Part shown: positions 11,993 through 18,438 of the stretch, one piece after another | Layout of the letters: every line of letters starts with the position of its first letter | How positions within the stretch are numbered: the first letter of the stretch is position 1 | DNA from: a virus | Direction: 5' to 3' (one strand) | DNA: 20,383 nucleotides | IMG/VR virus record: IMGVR_UViG_3300042731_001443 | Span: 1 to 20,383 of that record | Position numbers and translations under genes: made by a program | The notes under the pieces: generated by a model | Database searches by the model: none | What the model was told of the DNA's origin: nothing | What the model saw: only the letters and a program-made list of their open reading frames with translations

Positions 11993-13327
11993 TTAGTTGC
12001 GTGCAGCAACAAGCGTTTTGAGAAGTGCTTCTTCTTTAAGGATAATACCTGCATAGAAGAAGTTGTAGCTGAAGAAGCCAGTAGTACCATACGGGTTAGC
12101 ATTTTCAACTTGTGCAGGAGATTTAGCGTTAAACTTGATTTTTTCAAGACCTTTAAGACCAACAGTTGCGAAAGCACCTTCAGTCGGGAAAAGAATCGGG
12201 AATACATCATAACGATCACCATCAGTAGCAGCACCAACTGAAAGATCACCACCACCAGTTACATCAAGAGTAGCATCAGCAGCAACATTAAGAGTTTCAC
12301 CTTCAGCTACAGTGAAAGATACACCATTTACAAGAATAACGTTATTTGCAGCAGCACCAGTAACGACTTTAATACCGTTAGTTACAGTAGTTGTAGCAAG
12401 GTTACCTACATAGTCATCTTGAACAGCAGCACCCTGACCACGGTAAACAGCAGCGGACTCAGCTTCAATAAAGCGAATTTCATGCATAGAACCTACTTCA
12501 CCTTCTGCCATAGTTGCAGCACCAGCATATTTATGGACCGGAATATATACATATTCTTTCTCATAATCAGTACCACGAGTAAGTGTTTCAAGATCAGACT
12601 TAACATCAGCCCCGATAATTGCGTAGTAGGATTTTGCTACAGGAGTTGTACCAATTTTTGTAGAACCAGTAACAACCATTGTATTTTTCTTAGCACGGTT
12701 ACGTACAAGTTTACGAACTGATTTACGAGCAAGATCGTAAGAAACTACCCAATCAACATCATCACTTCCGTCATCAGCAGACGCGATACCGATATCTTCA
12801 ATAGATGCAGCTGCACCAGAATAAAGAACAGTAGCTGTACCAAGCATATCACGCTGAATCAAATCTTCCATACGAGAGTTAGCAAGTTCACCAAGTTCTT
12901 CACGGTATTTAACCTGAATATAATCTTCAGACCAGATATCAACCTCATCAGTATAGTCAATCATCTCACCATAACGAGAAAAATTAGTTTCATATGTTAC
13001 TTTAGAAAGTGTACGCTGATTAGTTGCTCCTGCACCTTCAGACAATGTAGCATTAGTGAGTGCTGTATTAATATCAGCGATATCACGAGCAGTCAAATAA
13101 CCTTTAGAAGCAAAATCACCATCATCGAATGAACGATCATACATATGCTCAAAACGAGAAATTTTAAAAGTCTTACCGTATTTCTGTGGCATAGACCGAC
13201 GATCAGCAAATTGCTGATAAACATTAACACGGTTAGCGGCATTTACACCAGCACGGTCGTAGTAATGTACAATAGTATTAGCACCGACTGTTGCGTCAGT
13301 ACCAGAGTTATATTGATTGTTTGCCAT
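11993..13327 (-). CDS. Major capsid protein, N4-gp56-like, 444 aa
   Basis: This is the coat subunit with an HK97-type fold. Family features in order: N-terminal arm with YDRAGVNAANRVNVYQQFAD; RRSMPQKYGKTFKISRFEHM (about 43-62); NFSRYGEMIDYTDEVDIWSED (about 115-135), the conserved strand-helix of N4-gp56 coats; the long spine helix to about 165; VPVHKYAG-like and GEVGSMHEIRFIEA (about 276-290); and the C-terminal VFPILFPTEGAFATVGLKG and GFFSYNFFYAGIILKEEALLKT. Residues about 312-371 are an Ala/Gly/Val/Thr/Asn-rich insertion, probably a surface beta domain. The gene is visibly richer in G+C and in preferred codons than its neighbours, as expected for the most highly expressed gene. AAAGGA lies seven bases before the ATG, scaffold is immediately upstream, and a hairpin follows. 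Confidence 0.93.
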   Translation of the reverse strand: MANNQYNSGTDATVGANTIVHYYDRAGVNAANRVNVYQQFADRRSMPQKYGKTFKISRFEHMYDRSFDDGDFASKGYLTARDIADINTALTNATLSEGAGATNQRTLSKVTYETNFSRYGEMIDYTDEVDIWSEDYIQVKYREELGELANSRMEDLIQRDMLGTATVLYSGAAASIEDIGIASADDGSDDVDWVVSYDLARKSVRKLVRNRAKKNTMVVTGSTKIGTTPVAKSYYAIIGADVKSDLETLTRGTDYEKEYVYIPVHKYAGAATMAEGEVGSMHEIRFIEAESAAVYRGQGAAVQDDYVGNLATTTVTNGIKVVTGAAANNVILVNGVSFTVAEGETLNVAADATLDVTGGGDLSVGAATDGDRYDVFPILFPTEGAFATVGLKGLEKIKFNAKSPAQVENANPYGTTGFFSYNFFYAGIILKEEALLKTLVAARN

Positions 13328-13341
13328 TTATTTTTCCTTTA

Positions 13342-14499
13342 TTAATGGGCATCCATTAGTTTATTATACCAATCATCAAATTCTTCGTCAGAAGCATCTA
13401 AATAATCAGTTCTTTTTTTAACCCCACTAACTTTTTTGGTTGGGGCAGCTGCTTTTCTTTTAACTGAAGCTGACTTAGTTGCTTTTCGTTTTTCTGTATC
13501 AGCTTTTACTTTACTGATTTTTTCTTTTGCAATCTCTGCCTGTTCAGTTTTTTCCAGTCGTGCTTCTTCTTGACCTAGTTTTTCAAAGTATTGTCCAGCT
13601 GCTTCTTTGTAGTAATCAAGATCACTCTTTTTACCACCATCATAAACTTTAAGTTTATTAGCCATAGGTGCGATAGTATCAAACATACCACTTTTTACAT
13701 CGATATGCAATTGACGAATCAATTCAGGATTATCAATAAATTCGCTTCTGCTCTTACTATCCCATTTTGACTCAAGAATATCATACGTAGTATCATATTC
13801 TTTATCACCTTTAATCTCATCAACAATATCTTTGATCGCTAGTTCAGTCTCATTCCGACCATAATCCTTTGGTTGATATTCTGAATTGTCTACATCTAAT
13901 TCGAGGGCATCTACGCCTGTTCTTTTTAGTAATGAAGCAATTGCATCTTTATCACCCTTCAGTACATCAATAGCCAAATTAACATCATCTTGACTTAGAT
14001 TTGCTTGTTCAATCGCATCAATCGTTTTACGCCAAGGCTTAATTTGTTGCATCTTCTGAGTATAATTCATTGCTTGACCAAATACTTGACCAAACTTTTC
14101 AAAAATCTCATCATCTGAAAACTCATACTCTTTGCCATTTGCACGATATTTTCGAAGTACTGGTTGTTCTTCATCTTCTGATTTATCATCTTCTTCAGTA
14201 GTTTGCTCATCTTCAGAATCTTGTTCCTCGTCAGGTTCACTTTCATCTGTTTCCGAATCTTCTTCAGAATCTTCTTCCTCATCATCATCATCAGAACTAG
14301 TATCATCATCGGAATCCTCATCATCGATGGGTTGTTCCAAGTCTTCCGTACTATCTGTTTCTTCTTCTACTTCTATATCTTCAAAATCTTCTTCAATTGC
14401 AGTCTCAGGTGACTGTTCTTGAGCAGAAGCTTCTTTAAAAGCTGCCTCTAGCTCATCATCACTCATATTCCATAATTGATCATCAGTATAATTAGCCAT
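13342..14499 (-). CDS. Capsid scaffolding protein, 385 aa
   Basis: The protein is strongly polar. Residues about 36-111 are nearly all Asp/Glu/Ser, followed by a folded helical core (GKEYEFSDDEIFEKFGQVFG at about 122-141, then NYTQKMQQIKPWRKTI). A helical region rich in Lys/Glu/Ala at about 290-330 leads to a basic stretch at about 328-363 (KVKADTEKRKATKSASVKRK) and a short acidic, aromatic tail ending WYNKLMDAH. An acidic N-terminus and basic helical C-terminus, encoded directly before the coat gene, fit phage scaffolds, whose basic C-terminus contacts the coat. GAGGAA seven bases before the ATG lies in the end of the preceding gene. The last codons contain an extended -10 element that could drive the coat gene. 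No protease motif is seen. Confidence 0.85.
   Translation of the reverse strand: MANYTDDQLWNMSDDELEAAFKEASAQEQSPETAIEEDFEDIEVEEETDSTEDLEQPIDDEDSDDDTSSDDDDEEEDSEEDSETDESEPDEEQDSEDEQTTEEDDKSEDEEQPVLRKYRANGKEYEFSDDEIFEKFGQVFGQAMNYTQKMQQIKPWRKTIDAIEQANLSQDDVNLAIDVLKGDKDAIASLLKRTGVDALELDVDNSEYQPKDYGRNETELAIKDIVDEIKGDKEYDTTYDILESKWDSKSRSEFIDNPELIRQLHIDVKSGMFDTIAPMANKLKVYDGGKKSDLDYYKEAAGQYFEKLGQEEARLEKTEQAEIAKEKISKVKADTEKRKATKSASVKRKAAAPTKKVSGVKKRTDYLDASDEEFDDWYNKLMDAH
13363..13372 (-). promoter_or_regulatory. Extended -10 promoter inside the scaffold gene, before coat
   Basis: The minus strand reads TTGGTATAAT within the codons for Trp-Tyr-Asn of the scaffold C-terminus; the hexamer ends 35 bases before the coat ATG at 13327. 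Seventeen bases further upstream is CTGACG, matching the -35 TTGACA at four positions. It could raise coat expression over scaffold. Because it is coding, chance is possible. Confidence 0.45.
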
Positions 14500-14932: not shown

Positions 14933-15136
14933 CTAAGATTTAGGGCCTGTTTTTTTCCAGCTTTTACTTACCTTAGCAAAATTTGCTCGTTTACGTACTG
15001 CTGCAGATTTACTAGCAAGTCCTTCACTAATACAAGAATCAGTTACAGAACCATAACCTTTTGATTTACAGTACTGCGTAAATAAACCCTTTCGTTCTGG
15101 TTTAATATGAATACCACTTTTTTTCTTATCAGCCAT
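14933..15136 (-). CDS. Small basic phage protein with AVRKRANFA motif, 67 aa
   Basis: I chose the ATG at 15136 (MADKKKSGIHIKPERKGLFT). An in-frame ATG at 15190 would add 18 residues but sits one base from AGGAGG, too close. The 15136 start has GAAAGG about nine bases upstream. The protein is Lys-rich throughout, with IHIKPERKGLFTQYCKSKGY at the start and AAVRKRANFAKVSKSWKK near the end. A short basic protein with 'GI.IKPS+KGL...' and 'SPAVRKRA.FA.NAKKW' is widespread in tailed phages and usually lies in the structural cluster; its function is not known to me. The charge suggests nucleic-acid binding or contact with the acidic scaffold. One base separates it from the preceding 15-residue gene. 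Confidence 0.75.
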   Translation of the reverse strand: MADKKKSGIHIKPERKGLFTQYCKSKGYGSVTDSCISEGLASKSAAVRKRANFAKVSKSWKKTGPKS

Positions 15137-15137
15137 A

Positions 15138-15185
15138 TTATTTACCTTTCTTTCCAGTGCCTTTTTTCTTCGTTTTACATGCCAT
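15138..15185 (-). CDS. Very short Lys-rich peptide gene, 15 aa
   Basis: ATG at 15185 is six bases after a strong AGGAGG (15192-15197), the best ribosome site in this cluster, and encodes MACKTKKKGTGKKGK followed by TAA. The stop falls one base before the next gene's ATG at 15136. The ideal spacing points to this start rather than the ATG at 15190. Tiny Lys/Gly-rich peptides of this style occur among phage small structural genes. It could be a real minor protein or an upstream peptide that couples translation into the 67-residue gene. Its length makes chance hard to exclude. Confidence 0.5.
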   Translation of the reverse strand: MACKTKKKGTGKKGK

Positions 15186-15191
15186 AACATA

Positions 15192-15198: not shown

Positions 15199-15585
15199 TT
15201 AATCTAGTTCTCTAAGTTTATAAAGTGTTTGATAATATAATTTTTGAATCTCTTGAATTATATTATCAATAAAGGGATGTTTACAACTTTTAGACAAATT
15301 TTCAATCATCATAATATGAGTCTCAAGAGCGTCAATTGGATCTTCAACATCTCCTTTTAAAGGGATAAATGGAATATCTAGTTTCCCCCAGATTCCTTGT
15401 GCTGCTTCAGCTAAATCATCTGCCATTTCTGTAACATCAAAATCAGTATCACTTTCATCATCATAAAAATCATTTAGTGCAATATGTTTAGAATAACTAG
15501 ATGTACGCAAATGTGCCATATGTGCATATGTACGACTCATCATCAAAATACCGACTATCTTAGCAATTTTTTCTTTATTTTCCAT
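15199..15585 (-). CDS. DUF5856-like protein with Dps-like residue spacing, 128 aa
   Basis: The core reads MMSRTYAHMAHLRTSSYSKH followed by IALNDFYDD and MADDLAEAAQG. This 'SRT.aH..HL.T.SY..H.AL..FY...D..AE..QG' signature matches what I know of the phage DUF5856 family. His22 and His34 are 12 residues apart, as are the ferroxidase histidines of Dps (E. coli H51/H63), and Asp56/Glu60 are 4 apart, as are Dps D78/E82. A seven-residue acidic insertion after Asp42 lengthens the interval between the two pairs. The rest is helical, with LYKLREL at the end. A four-helix, possibly metal-binding bundle is my inference; its role in the virion cluster is unknown. AGGA lies before the ATG, and the preceding gene overlaps it by 11 bases. 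Confidence 0.75.
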   Translation of the reverse strand: MENKEKIAKIVGILMMSRTYAHMAHLRTSSYSKHIALNDFYDDESDTDFDVTEMADDLAEAAQGIWGKLDIPFIPLKGDVEDPIDALETHIMMIENLSKSCKHPFIDNIIQEIQKLYYQTLYKLRELD

Positions 15586-15718
15586 TATTTTTCCTATTTT
15601 TTATTTTACATTTTCTCTTTTTACGCATAGGAGAAGAACTTCTTTTAGGAGTACTACTTGCACCGCCATAATAGTGTTTAACACTTTGTTGGGCCAACCC
15701 TCCTTCATAAGTTTCCAT
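15575..15718 (-). CDS. Small highly basic protein, 47 aa
   Basis: The ATG at 15718 directly abuts the TAG of the upstream gene, with AGGAGA about five bases before it. The product begins METYEGGLAQQSVKHYYGGA and ends in a cluster of Lys/Arg (MRKKRKCKIKNRKNN). The first half is polar with Tyr/Gly; the second half carries about twelve basic residues and no acidic ones. The gene overlaps the start of the next one by 11 bases, typical of tightly coupled phage genes. Family unknown. The charge points to nucleic-acid or scaffold binding. It is easily missed because of its length, but the ribosome site and the exact fit between neighbours make it convincing. Confidence 0.68.
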   Translation of the reverse strand: METYEGGLAQQSVKHYYGGASSTPKRSSSPMRKKRKCKIKNRKNNGK

Positions 15719-16473: not shown

Positions 16474-18438
16474 TTATCTTGGTAACCCAATATTTTGGTC
16501 CCCCGCTTCTTTTTGAATTTGAGCCATTAGTAATTGGTGTTGTCTATCTTTATCTTTCTCTAACGACTCATATTGCTCTCTATAACCATTGTCTTTTTCG
16601 ATAAAATCTAAGTCTACTTTATCTGCATCACTATGAAGTTTTCTAGCTTTTGCTGCTTCTACAGCTGCCTTATTCTTCTTAAGTTCTGCATCAATTTGGT
16701 TTTCTCCTGCACGAGCGTATTTATCAGCAATATCTGCACGCATTTTCTCAATTTCCATCTGTAATTTCATAAATTCCAGTTGCTTAGCTTGTTCTGCTGC
16801 AGGATCTGGTTGTGGTTCATACTCTTTAATTTGTTTCTCAAGAGCAGGCATCCTACTTAATTTAGCAAATTCACCCATAATCATTTTAGTCATATCAAAT
16901 GGCATAGTATTTCCAAGAGTTTGCATTAAGAAACTTAGTTCTTGTGCTTTTGCGCTATTATCTTCTGCTGTACTAATAGCAATTTCAATATCCAATTTAC
17001 CACTTAAGTCATCTCTTCTTACAGGAACATATTCCTCATTAGTAACCCTAATTATTTCTTCTTCATCTAGAAATTCACTATTATATGCCATCCATTTTCT
17101 AAACAATGGCTTCATCAAATTCTCTGCAATATTTCTAACTAGGTTTAATCTTCTAGTTGCAGTAGCGTCTAGAGCACCTCTAGCACCTGTAGCAGTGTTG
17201 CCAAGAGCATTACCACTAATACCCCCACTAAAGCTTTTTACCCCTGTTTGACTTTCAATTTCATTATTCATTAATTCCATCATATTAAATGCAGAACTGG
17301 GTATTTGATTATAACTACCTTGCCAGAAATCATTTGGTGTACCATTATATTCAAAGTTATCACCACTTAAAAAGCGTTTTCTATTAGTTCCATCCAAAGC
17401 ACCTTTTCTCATACCAATCTGCCCATTATTACTTTTAGCCATATTGTCAATAAGTCCACGAGTAATAGCAGTTTTTACTTTTTGATTATCGCCAATATTA
17501 GCTGCTAATGCTTCACCAAACAGCTGAAAAGGAACCGCATTAAAAGGTACTACTACAAAAGGAGGTTTCTCATCAGGATAAGGATTACTTTCTAATCGAA
17601 TGATTGTATCACCTACCCATGTACAAACAATAGGTTCTACAATACCGTCACCATCTACATCATAGTTACCCCAATATTCATGAACCATTATTTTTTTACG
17701 TGCTTTATCTTTAAATCTAAAGTTAGTCAAATCTTCAGGAATAAAATCCGAATCTCTACTTATGTCTAGTGTTGCAACCTTATCTAGATTTTTATATCTT
17801 CCATCTTGCTTTAGCGTACTCATATCTGTTTCATATCTATGAATTACAAATTGACATTTATCCATATCATCCATACAGGTAGGATCAATAAAAATATCTT
17901 CATTTCTGCAAACAATAGCAGTAGGCTGATTTTTAATTACTTTAGTTTCGGTAACTACCTCAATATCAATATATTCTTGATTTTCATTATTAATCTTAAT
18001 TACTTCTACTTCAGTTTCTACTTCTTCATCTTCATAATCCCAGCCAGTTTGTATAATTACAGTACCTTCAGTAGCAAGTACTCGTAATGCTTTCATAATA
18101 AAGTTATATCTAGGGAATTTTCTACAAAATTGTGTATTTAACAAAAGTTCGTTTTGTCTAGCTGCTTCAACATCTTCATATGTTACAGGATTACATTTAA
18201 TTACATCAGGAGTGCTTAAAAAGGGATCAGCTAAAGAAGGTAACATCCATTCCATTTGCTTACGAATGTCTTTTGATACTATTGCTGATTTACCTTTAAT
18301 TTCGTTACCATAGGGATCACCGTTAGTCTCATTAGCCCAACGTTCACGAAGACCAAGCCATTCTTTTTGCATTACTTCTGATGCTTTAAAATCTTGCTTT
18401 AAAGAAGTCAACAATTCTTGTTTATTTATTTTAGCCAT
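16474..18438 (-). CDS. Portal (head-tail connector) protein, SU10/phiEco32-like, 654 aa
   Basis: This would be the dodecameric ring at the packaging vertex. The N-terminus has REWANETNGDPYGNEIKG-type residues then SAIVSKDIRKQMEWMLPSLA (about 51-70) and DPFLSTPDVIKCNP, a signature of portals annotated SU10-like or P22/N4-like. At about 118-132 is LRVLATEGTVIIQTGWDYED, and at about 182-190 IFIDPTCMD. The clip/stem region is near PPFVVVPFNAVPFQLFGEAL (about 292-311), followed by the conserved GGISGNALGNTATGARGALD (about 405-424). Residues about 545-645 form a long coiled coil (the barrel). Length suits podoviral portals. The ribosome site is AGGGA about nine bases before the ATG, and an extended -10 element lies upstream. 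Confidence 0.9.
   Translation of the reverse strand: MAKINKQELLTSLKQDFKASEVMQKEWLGLRERWANETNGDPYGNEIKGKSAIVSKDIRKQMEWMLPSLADPFLSTPDVIKCNPVTYEDVEAARQNELLLNTQFCRKFPRYNFIMKALRVLATEGTVIIQTGWDYEDEEVETEVEVIKINNENQEYIDIEVVTETKVIKNQPTAIVCRNEDIFIDPTCMDDMDKCQFVIHRYETDMSTLKQDGRYKNLDKVATLDISRDSDFIPEDLTNFRFKDKARKKIMVHEYWGNYDVDGDGIVEPIVCTWVGDTIIRLESNPYPDEKPPFVVVPFNAVPFQLFGEALAANIGDNQKVKTAITRGLIDNMAKSNNGQIGMRKGALDGTNRKRFLSGDNFEYNGTPNDFWQGSYNQIPSSAFNMMELMNNEIESQTGVKSFSGGISGNALGNTATGARGALDATATRRLNLVRNIAENLMKPLFRKWMAYNSEFLDEEEIIRVTNEEYVPVRRDDLSGKLDIEIAISTAEDNSAKAQELSFLMQTLGNTMPFDMTKMIMGEFAKLSRMPALEKQIKEYEPQPDPAAEQAKQLEFMKLQMEIEKMRADIADKYARAGENQIDAELKKNKAAVEAAKARKLHSDADKVDLDFIEKDNGYREQYESLEKDKDRQHQLLMAQIQKEAGDQNIGLPR

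Follow-up and report, generated by a model that had tools for sequence, protein, structure and literature searches.

The gene at positions 15199-15585, on the minus strand of the window (the whole stretch of DNA analysed here, a 20,383-base virus record, IMGVR_UViG_3300042731_001443, positions 1 to 20,383), encodes a protein that is, as judged from sequence comparison and a predicted structure, a reduced and distant relative of Dps within the ferritin superfamily and not a Dps. We interpret it as a metal-binding mini-ferritin that would be made late and associated with the virion, a reading to which, taken as a whole, we assign a probability of roughly 0.6. The features on which the analysis relies are as follows.

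11993-13327, minus strand: major head protein (phrog_1357; PHROGs)
13342-14499, minus strand: phrog_2120 protein (label: tape measure), between the portal and capsid genes (PHROGs; order as for AD45 gp011)
14933-15190, minus strand: very basic protein of 85 aa, directly 3' of the DUF5856 gene
15199-15585, minus strand: DUF5856/phrog_858 gene, 128 aa, predicted Dps-like four-helix protein (Pfam, PHROGs, AlphaFold2)
15220-15222, minus strand: Tyr122 codon, fifth invariant residue (173/173), aligned with Dps W160 in two hhalign alignments
15406-15408, minus strand: Glu60 codon (173/173), aligned with Dps E82 (hhalign)
15418-15420, minus strand: Asp56 codon (173/173), aligned with Dps D78 (hhalign)
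15439-15459, minus strand: acidic 7-residue insertion D43-F49, GAT-rich codons, splitting helix B of the model
15484-15486, minus strand: His34 codon (173/173), aligned with Dps H63 (hhalign)
15511-15513, minus strand: His25 codon (173/173), aligned with E. coli Dps H51 (hhalign); the PF19174 match starts here
15520-15522, minus strand: His22 codon, the residue named in the original prediction (116/173), one helical turn ahead of His25
16474-18438, minus strand: portal protein (PF23899 SU10_portal, phrog_1216; Pfam, PHROGs), upstream and in the same direction

The open reading frame lies where the original prediction had placed it; it comprises 128 codons on the minus strand, and the plus strand of 15199-15585, translated in one frame, is interrupted by stops. 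The minus-strand gene run reads portal, two small genes, DUF5856, the 85-aa basic protein, a 112-aa protein, the phrog_2120 protein, and the major head protein. The product of 13342-14499 is possibly a scaffold, given its very acidic N-terminal third and its position between the portal and the head protein. Nothing in Pfam or PHROGs matched the product of 14933-15190, for which NCBIfam returned chance-level matches only, and a scan for promoters and terminators likewise stayed at chance level. A minus-strand frame of 47 codons (15575-15718), basic in its C-terminal half, begins immediately behind the 15719-15967 gene and shares 11 nt with the 5' end of the DUF5856 gene.

The protein had been described as DUF5856-like, and with 54.8 bits against a Pfam gathering cut-off of 34.6 it is a member of PF19174 (DUF5856), matched over model positions 1-94 of 94 and residues 25-124; it also belongs to phrog_858 (E 1e-23), which PHROGs labels "starvation-inducible transcriptional regulator." At E ≤ 1, tblastn matched 575 phage records, in 569 of which the match spanned 80% or more of the query; Ackermannviridae and T4-like phages are among them. 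A Tequatrovirus record annotates its DUF5856 gene as rI.-1/MobD.6, beside the lysis-inhibition gene rI, so that the family, by that annotation, includes T4 rI.-1, with which the window protein shares membership and all 5 invariant residues described below; unlike the window gene, the T4-like copies stand beside the lysis-inhibition gene and not in a head cluster. The Pfam Ferritin model (PF00210) matched none of 5 DUF5856 proteins scanned (that of the window and 4 others) at E ≤ 1, whereas E. coli Dps and that of a Campylobacter phage both matched. NCBIfam yielded no match for the 3 DUF5856 proteins submitted.

A scan of viral contigs with the single protein had no useful yield, whereas a profile scan revealed at least 520 family places, of which 80 were retained as loci. 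Later scans added members, including a rarer long-loop type, and another (the L110 group) showed 286 places, a part of which, as of the 520, was collected. The 224 members collected were reduced to 174 that are distinct over their last 105 residues and, after removal of one that lacks its N-terminal half (L242), to 173 full-length sequences, the window protein included; statements on invariance cover this collected set. The 80-locus set is partly circular with respect to the ligand positions, as the search patterns included H34 or D56/E60, and the patterns of later scans also touch single ligand positions. Among these 80 loci, the 13 that match just the His pattern all keep the remaining residues, the 42 that match just the Asp/Glu pattern all keep the His residues, and 7 distinct members found by tblastn, which is free of patterns, retain all 5 invariant residues. 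Six loci came from bacterial assemblies, 5 of them metagenome-assembled and 1 an isolate contig of Rhizorhabdus histidinilytica (769 kb); the last is probably a prophage locus, since a portal gene adjoins it. In a 635-kb phage (L011 3776-4351, LR745206), the DUF5856 protein is lengthened at its N terminus by about 60 residues and has a His-His spacing of 13, and in phT4A (L005 4127-4354, YP_010089050.1), the annotated start is apparently about 43 codons late, which costs the protein its conserved His residues.

Exactly 5 positions are strictly invariant in the 173 members, namely His25, His34, Asp56, Glu60, and Tyr122. The original prediction had likened 4 residues, His22, His34, Asp56, and Glu60, to the Dps ferroxidase center. 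Its intervals are correct (His22 and His34 are 12 apart, Asp56 and Glu60 are 4 apart) and 3 of its residues are conserved throughout, but the first is not: position 22 is His in 116 members, Arg in 49, and Lys in 8, and the profile alignments make His25 the Dps equivalent. All 57 members without His22 stem from the L110 scan, in which only 1 of 58 has it. The motif by itself is weak, as H-x11-H followed by D-x3-E arose in 5.0% of 20,000 shuffles of the window protein. The conservation, unlike the motif, is far beyond chance in the sequences compared, for the set with His25 in place of His22. We reject His22 as the counterpart of a Dps ligand, on the basis of Arg or Lys in 57/173 and of profile alignments that choose His25. 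The 12-residue interval from His22 appears to equal the Dps number incidentally; it does so only because the His-His loop of most members is 3 residues shorter and an extra His stands one turn earlier.

We compared 3 DUF5856 alignments with 11 Dps proteins, which share 9 invariant positions, the ferroxidase ligands H51, H63, D78, and E82 (numbered as in E. coli) included. The hhalign probabilities were 90% to 93% with scores of 40 to 47. In a scripted repeat, the true comparison scored 40 to 43 and the reversed Dps alignment 4, and shuffling of the Dps columns never gave more than 10.2 (58 and 57 of 60 runs answered). All 3 comparisons set H25 on H51, H34 on H63, D56 on D78, and E60 on E82; Y122 fell on W160 in the 2 alignments that reach the end, the third spanning the first half only. 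The correspondence is partial: R83, invariant in the 11 Dps proteins, is without an equivalent in DUF5856 (Ala in 96/173 and Thr in 55/173 at position 61), and the equivalent of Dps W52 is Trp in only 66/173. When the family HMM was run against all PDB sequences, NapA came first (E 0.003-0.008); a designed bundle (0.09) and D. radiodurans Dps2 (0.11) came next, and E. coli Dps ranked below them (0.7). An alternative, ungapped HMMER alignment with D. radiodurans Dps2 sets His22 on the Dps His; we took the residue register from the 3 gapped profile alignments, the long-loop members, and conservation.

The spacings H25-H34, H34-D56, and D56-E60 are 9-15-4 in 163 members, 12-15-4 in 5 (L126, L135, L141, L143, and L150), 12-14-4 in 2 (L149 and L151), 13-15-4 in 2, and 9-22-4 in the window protein alone. 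The 12-15-4 members have the full E. coli Dps spacing, and some of them show a Dps-style HW followed by Gly (e.g., L135, EHWRATGTGSFAKH); the 12-15-4 and 12-14-4 proteins are possible intermediates between Dps and DUF5856.

The AlphaFold2 model of the window protein (48 sequences, single chain) reached a pLDDT of 92.3 and a pTM of 0.88, with helices at residues 3-27, 31-41, 51-66, 83-98, and 104-126. A member from the Dickeya phage LIMEstone1, modeled separately, has the same bundle (pLDDT 92.9). In Foldseek searches of the PDB with the window model, the first 16 rows consisted entirely of Dps and its homologues (E 0.06-0.12, TMq 0.48-0.72), TMq to E. coli Dps (8pv9) being 0.78, and E. coli Dps was the best match of the LIMEstone1 model; the E-values are weak for both models, none being ≤ 0.001. 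For the window model, the VIA-align Z was 15.0 against M. smegmatis Dps2 and 14.0 against E. coli Dps (2.4 Å over 121 aligned residues in each case), and for the LIMEstone1 model it was 14.0 and 12.8, respectively, to be read with the caution that Z below about 13 in helical bundles may reflect common arrangement only. The end points of these alignments were excluded as evidence on register, the window model implying residue 25 on Dps 51 and the LIMEstone1 model setting its matching His on 49. The original prediction had made a Dps-like reading conditional on a four-helix-bundle fold; the predicted structure is such a bundle, with Dps as its best structural matches. What carries weight in the structural comparison is that Dps and other ferritin relatives occupy the rows and that the ligand positions agree. 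Among the viral models (BFVD), the best matches were mostly uncharacterized phage proteins. Two proteins of amoeba viruses, Fadolivirus and a Pithovirus (A0A7D3V608 and A0A481ZC29), were also among the better fold matches there.

Helical bundles match one another easily, and together with the 5% of shuffles that reproduce the originally proposed motif this could be taken to mean that an unrelated bundle resembles Dps by chance. We regard that explanation as scarcely credible: 5 invariant positions coincide with the Dps site, and the failure of the reversed and shuffled profile controls already contradicts it. Common descent with Dps and a Dps-type fold are, by contrast, close to certain.

The seven-residue acidic insertion (Asp43-Phe49) noted originally between the two residue pairs is real and peculiar to the window protein: its H34-D56 distance is 22, against 15 in 170 and 14 in 2 of the 173 full-length members, no other of which has the insertion. 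In the window model, it forms a loop that breaks helix B (mean pLDDT 78 for residues 41-50), whereas helix B of the LIMEstone1 model is unbroken (28-54). Dps dimers pack near the helix B region, and the window copy could be altered or inactive, since its insertion lies in helix B, near that packing.

The genomic surroundings link the family to virion genes frequently but not universally. Of the 80 viral loci, 63 have a same-strand portal gene upstream of DUF5856, and in 53 its end is no more than 30 nt away from the DUF5856 gene (phmmer, E ≤ 1e-4, queried with the portals of the window and 2 phages); 17 loci gave no such portal upstream, and in 2 of the 80 the upstream sequence is 600 nt or less. 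The portal also abuts the DUF5856 gene in L126, whose portal best matches that of the window, and in the Rhizorhabdus isolate contig (L237). The closest relatives by sequence (L012-L020, L023, and L024) gave no such portal upstream; in L017 the gene follows head genes, and in L023 it lies between tail fiber and holin genes. PHROGs assigned a family, of unknown function, to 1 of 5 neighbors in L160 and to neither of 2 in L136. In Ackermannviridae, the gene stands a few genes past the tail-completion gene, among structural-protein genes, and T4-like members adjoin rI, with no annotated structural gene in the neighborhoods viewed. By portal, the nearest isolates are the Alteromonas phages AD45 (62% identity), whose portal-capsid region contains no DUF5856 gene; a 258-nt gap between gp013 and gp012 occupies the site of the window's DUF5856 gene and the 85-aa basic gene, and the window gene at 14504-14842 matches AD45 gp012 at 51%. 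With T4-like copies beside rI and none in that region of AD45, the gene looks accessory; it is either an accessory passenger in the head cluster or has been lost in AD45.

The 53 abutting portal genes, the position among structural-protein genes in Ackermannviridae, and the form of the models, which have no BC helix, would suit a structural part in which the Dps fold has been reused for a small dimeric or ring-shaped element of the portal or neck, stapled by a structural, non-redox metal. Neither the T4-like neighborhoods viewed, free of annotated structural genes, nor the AD45 phages, nearest by portal yet without the gene in the portal-capsid region, sit well with such a part, and a purely structural role need not, we reason, retain the exact Dps ligand set; we therefore hold this alternative to the metal-binding mini-ferritin to be unlikely, though the most serious of its rivals.

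Published virion analyses of relatives bear on packaging. ORF78 of LIMEstone1, encoded within a cluster of virion proteins, was detected in phage particles through 3 unique peptides that cover 28% of it, and its record annotates it as a confirmed structural protein. The "Ferritin" gp217 of the Vi01-like phage Sajous1 was found in virions with 10 spectra and assigned through a Phyre2 match with a confidence of 96.7 (PMC10892097, 2024), the passages available naming no ligand residues; we infer that it is a DUF5856 member from the gene order in Guerrero, in which the tail completion gene is followed by 2 genes and then DUF5856. In the T4-like Klebsiella phages ValerieMcCarty03 and ValerieMcCarty04, a "starvation-inducible transcriptional regulator" accounted for 26 and 27 spectra, where the authors required 15; it is assigned to DUF5856 by its name, which is that of other Klebsiella phage records matched by tblastn. 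Canonical Dps has been reported with virions as well (SU10 CDS67 and Privateer Dps). Authors warn that proteins with low spectra in virion preparations may be contaminants, and contamination is possible throughout. The suggestion that a Dps-like protein was recruited to the phage virion thus has published mass spectrometry of relatives in its favor; the protein of this phage itself has about an even chance of being virion-associated. To say that nothing is known of the family in phages would be too strong, in view of the family labels, the virion "ferritin" of 2024, and the over-expression phenotype of rI.-1.

That phenotype, as summarized in a review, is that over-expression of T4 rI.-1 slightly prolongs lysis inhibition. 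Together with the position of the gene after the lysis-inhibition gene in T4-like phages and the authors' warning about contaminants, it could indicate an intracellular accessory protein, a metal buffer or signal in the infected cell that is merely carried over into virion preparations. We consider this quite unlikely. The 26 and 27 spectra of the 2 T4-like preparations exceed the cut-off, and the LIMEstone1 protein was detected in particles and is encoded in a virion-protein cluster. In addition, RaK2, said to encode an RI.-1 homologue, has no apparent homologues of T holin, RI, RI.1, or RIII. Laboratory lines of T4 are reported to differ by a frameshift in rI.-1, and the gene seems dispensable in T4 for that reason.

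For Vi01-like phages, iron-mediated entry has been proposed (PMC10892097): iron loaded on the protein and carried on the tail would exploit host iron uptake, as in the "Ferrojan horse" idea. Strains deficient in TonB or FeoB proved about equally easy to infect in that study, from which its authors conclude no more than that this is not the only way into the host concerned (PMC10892097), and for the family we find the idea exceedingly improbable.

If the protein works as a metal-binding mini-ferritin, its action would follow that of Dps. The metal site of Dps, a dodecameric cage, lies between two subunits, and by analogy the window protein would form at least an antiparallel dimer in which His25 and His34 of one subunit face Asp56 and Glu60 of the other, each such site holding a divalent metal, Fe(II) or another. 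Because the ligand set never varies in the members collected, metal binding at this predicted site is likely. Oxidation of the Fe(II) with peroxide or oxygen is a weaker step, and whether the protein is a ferroxidase is, on analogy with Dps, close to a coin toss. The protein would be expressed along with the late head genes and would either travel with the virion or be produced alongside it at assembly, and might shield the phage DNA, or the cell in which phages assemble and which they lyse, from free iron and peroxide; such a protective role is a guess from Dps biology and somewhat doubtful.

Several hallmarks of Dps are missing. E. coli Dps is 167 aa long, against 128 for the window protein and 114 to 125 for its 80 viral relatives, and its His-His spacing is 12, against 9 in 164 of the 173 DUF5856 members; the two share the four-helix bundle, the H-H-D-E set, the H-15-D-4-E spacing (in the family), and an aromatic residue at the W160 position. 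Dps has a short BC helix between helices B and C, which is absent from residues 67-82 of the window model and 55-72 of the LIMEstone1 model, and R83 and the PF00210 match also set it apart from DUF5856. E. coli Dps, of the DNA-binding subtype, has a basic N-terminal tail. No such tail is present in the window model, in which helix A begins at residue 3, and the protein is acidic (pI 4.73, net charge -11). The DNA binding suggested originally found no support here: an acidic protein without a tail is unlikely to bind DNA in the manner of Dps. A DNA-binding or transcription regulator, the function that phrog_858 and phage records name, is for the same charge (the 80 viral relatives have a median pI of 5.55, range 4.98-8.65) a very improbable reading, and we suspect that the label may simply derive from similarity to Dps.

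Labels and one Phyre2 match had hinted at the Dps-likeness of the family before. In the parts of the open-licence literature covered, we found nothing that gives the ligand set or the helix-B insertion, that links T4 rI.-1, the virion "ferritin," and the portal-coupled genes, or that reports biochemical work on a member; the name DUF5856 had no match in the open-licence papers searched, and a term search of PMC11721090 gave none either. The literature covered also included PMC3296691, PMC13119998, PMC6832632, PMC8008677, PMC10986025, PMC8573959, PMC3622015, PMC4281155, and PMC7881722. Pfam lists DUF5856, with relatives in hundreds of phage records, as being of unknown function, and a residue-level tie to the Dps ferroxidase site would turn a poorly understood T4 gene and a recurring virion unknown into one testable metalloprotein family. 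If members are truly packaged, virions would carry iron or peroxide chemistry, with consequences for how stable they are, for the early steps of infection, and for the iron that phages carry in the environment.

A wider reading would be that tailed phages repeatedly package ferroxidase-type Dps-fold proteins: kuraviruses would use canonical Dps, and Ackermannviridae and T4-like phages DUF5856, as would, by extension, this phage and the podoviruses with the portal-coupled gene. On that view, the head would work like an encapsulin, its HK97-fold shell equipped with a scavenger of iron and peroxide that either shields the packaged genome or passes into the host, and the acidic loop in helix B would be an adaptation of the dimer interface. 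We judge this improbable as a whole. The ferritin-like cargo loaded into encapsulins (IMEF, PMC6668986) does tie iron handling to an HK97-fold shell; for the phage protein, a location inside the head would be conjecture.

Canonical Dps proteins of phages (Streptomyces, Campylobacter, and Lactobacillus phages and kuraviruses) are, like DUF5856, Dps-fold proteins in a phage; that of Campylobacter phage CP20 matches PF00210 and not DUF5856, and the two wider neighborhoods viewed, in Comrade and GAP52, contain metabolic and replication genes. A 1.6-kb "Salmonella phage" record (OR851605.1) carries a dps gene that is 95% identical to E. coli dps and is probably host DNA.
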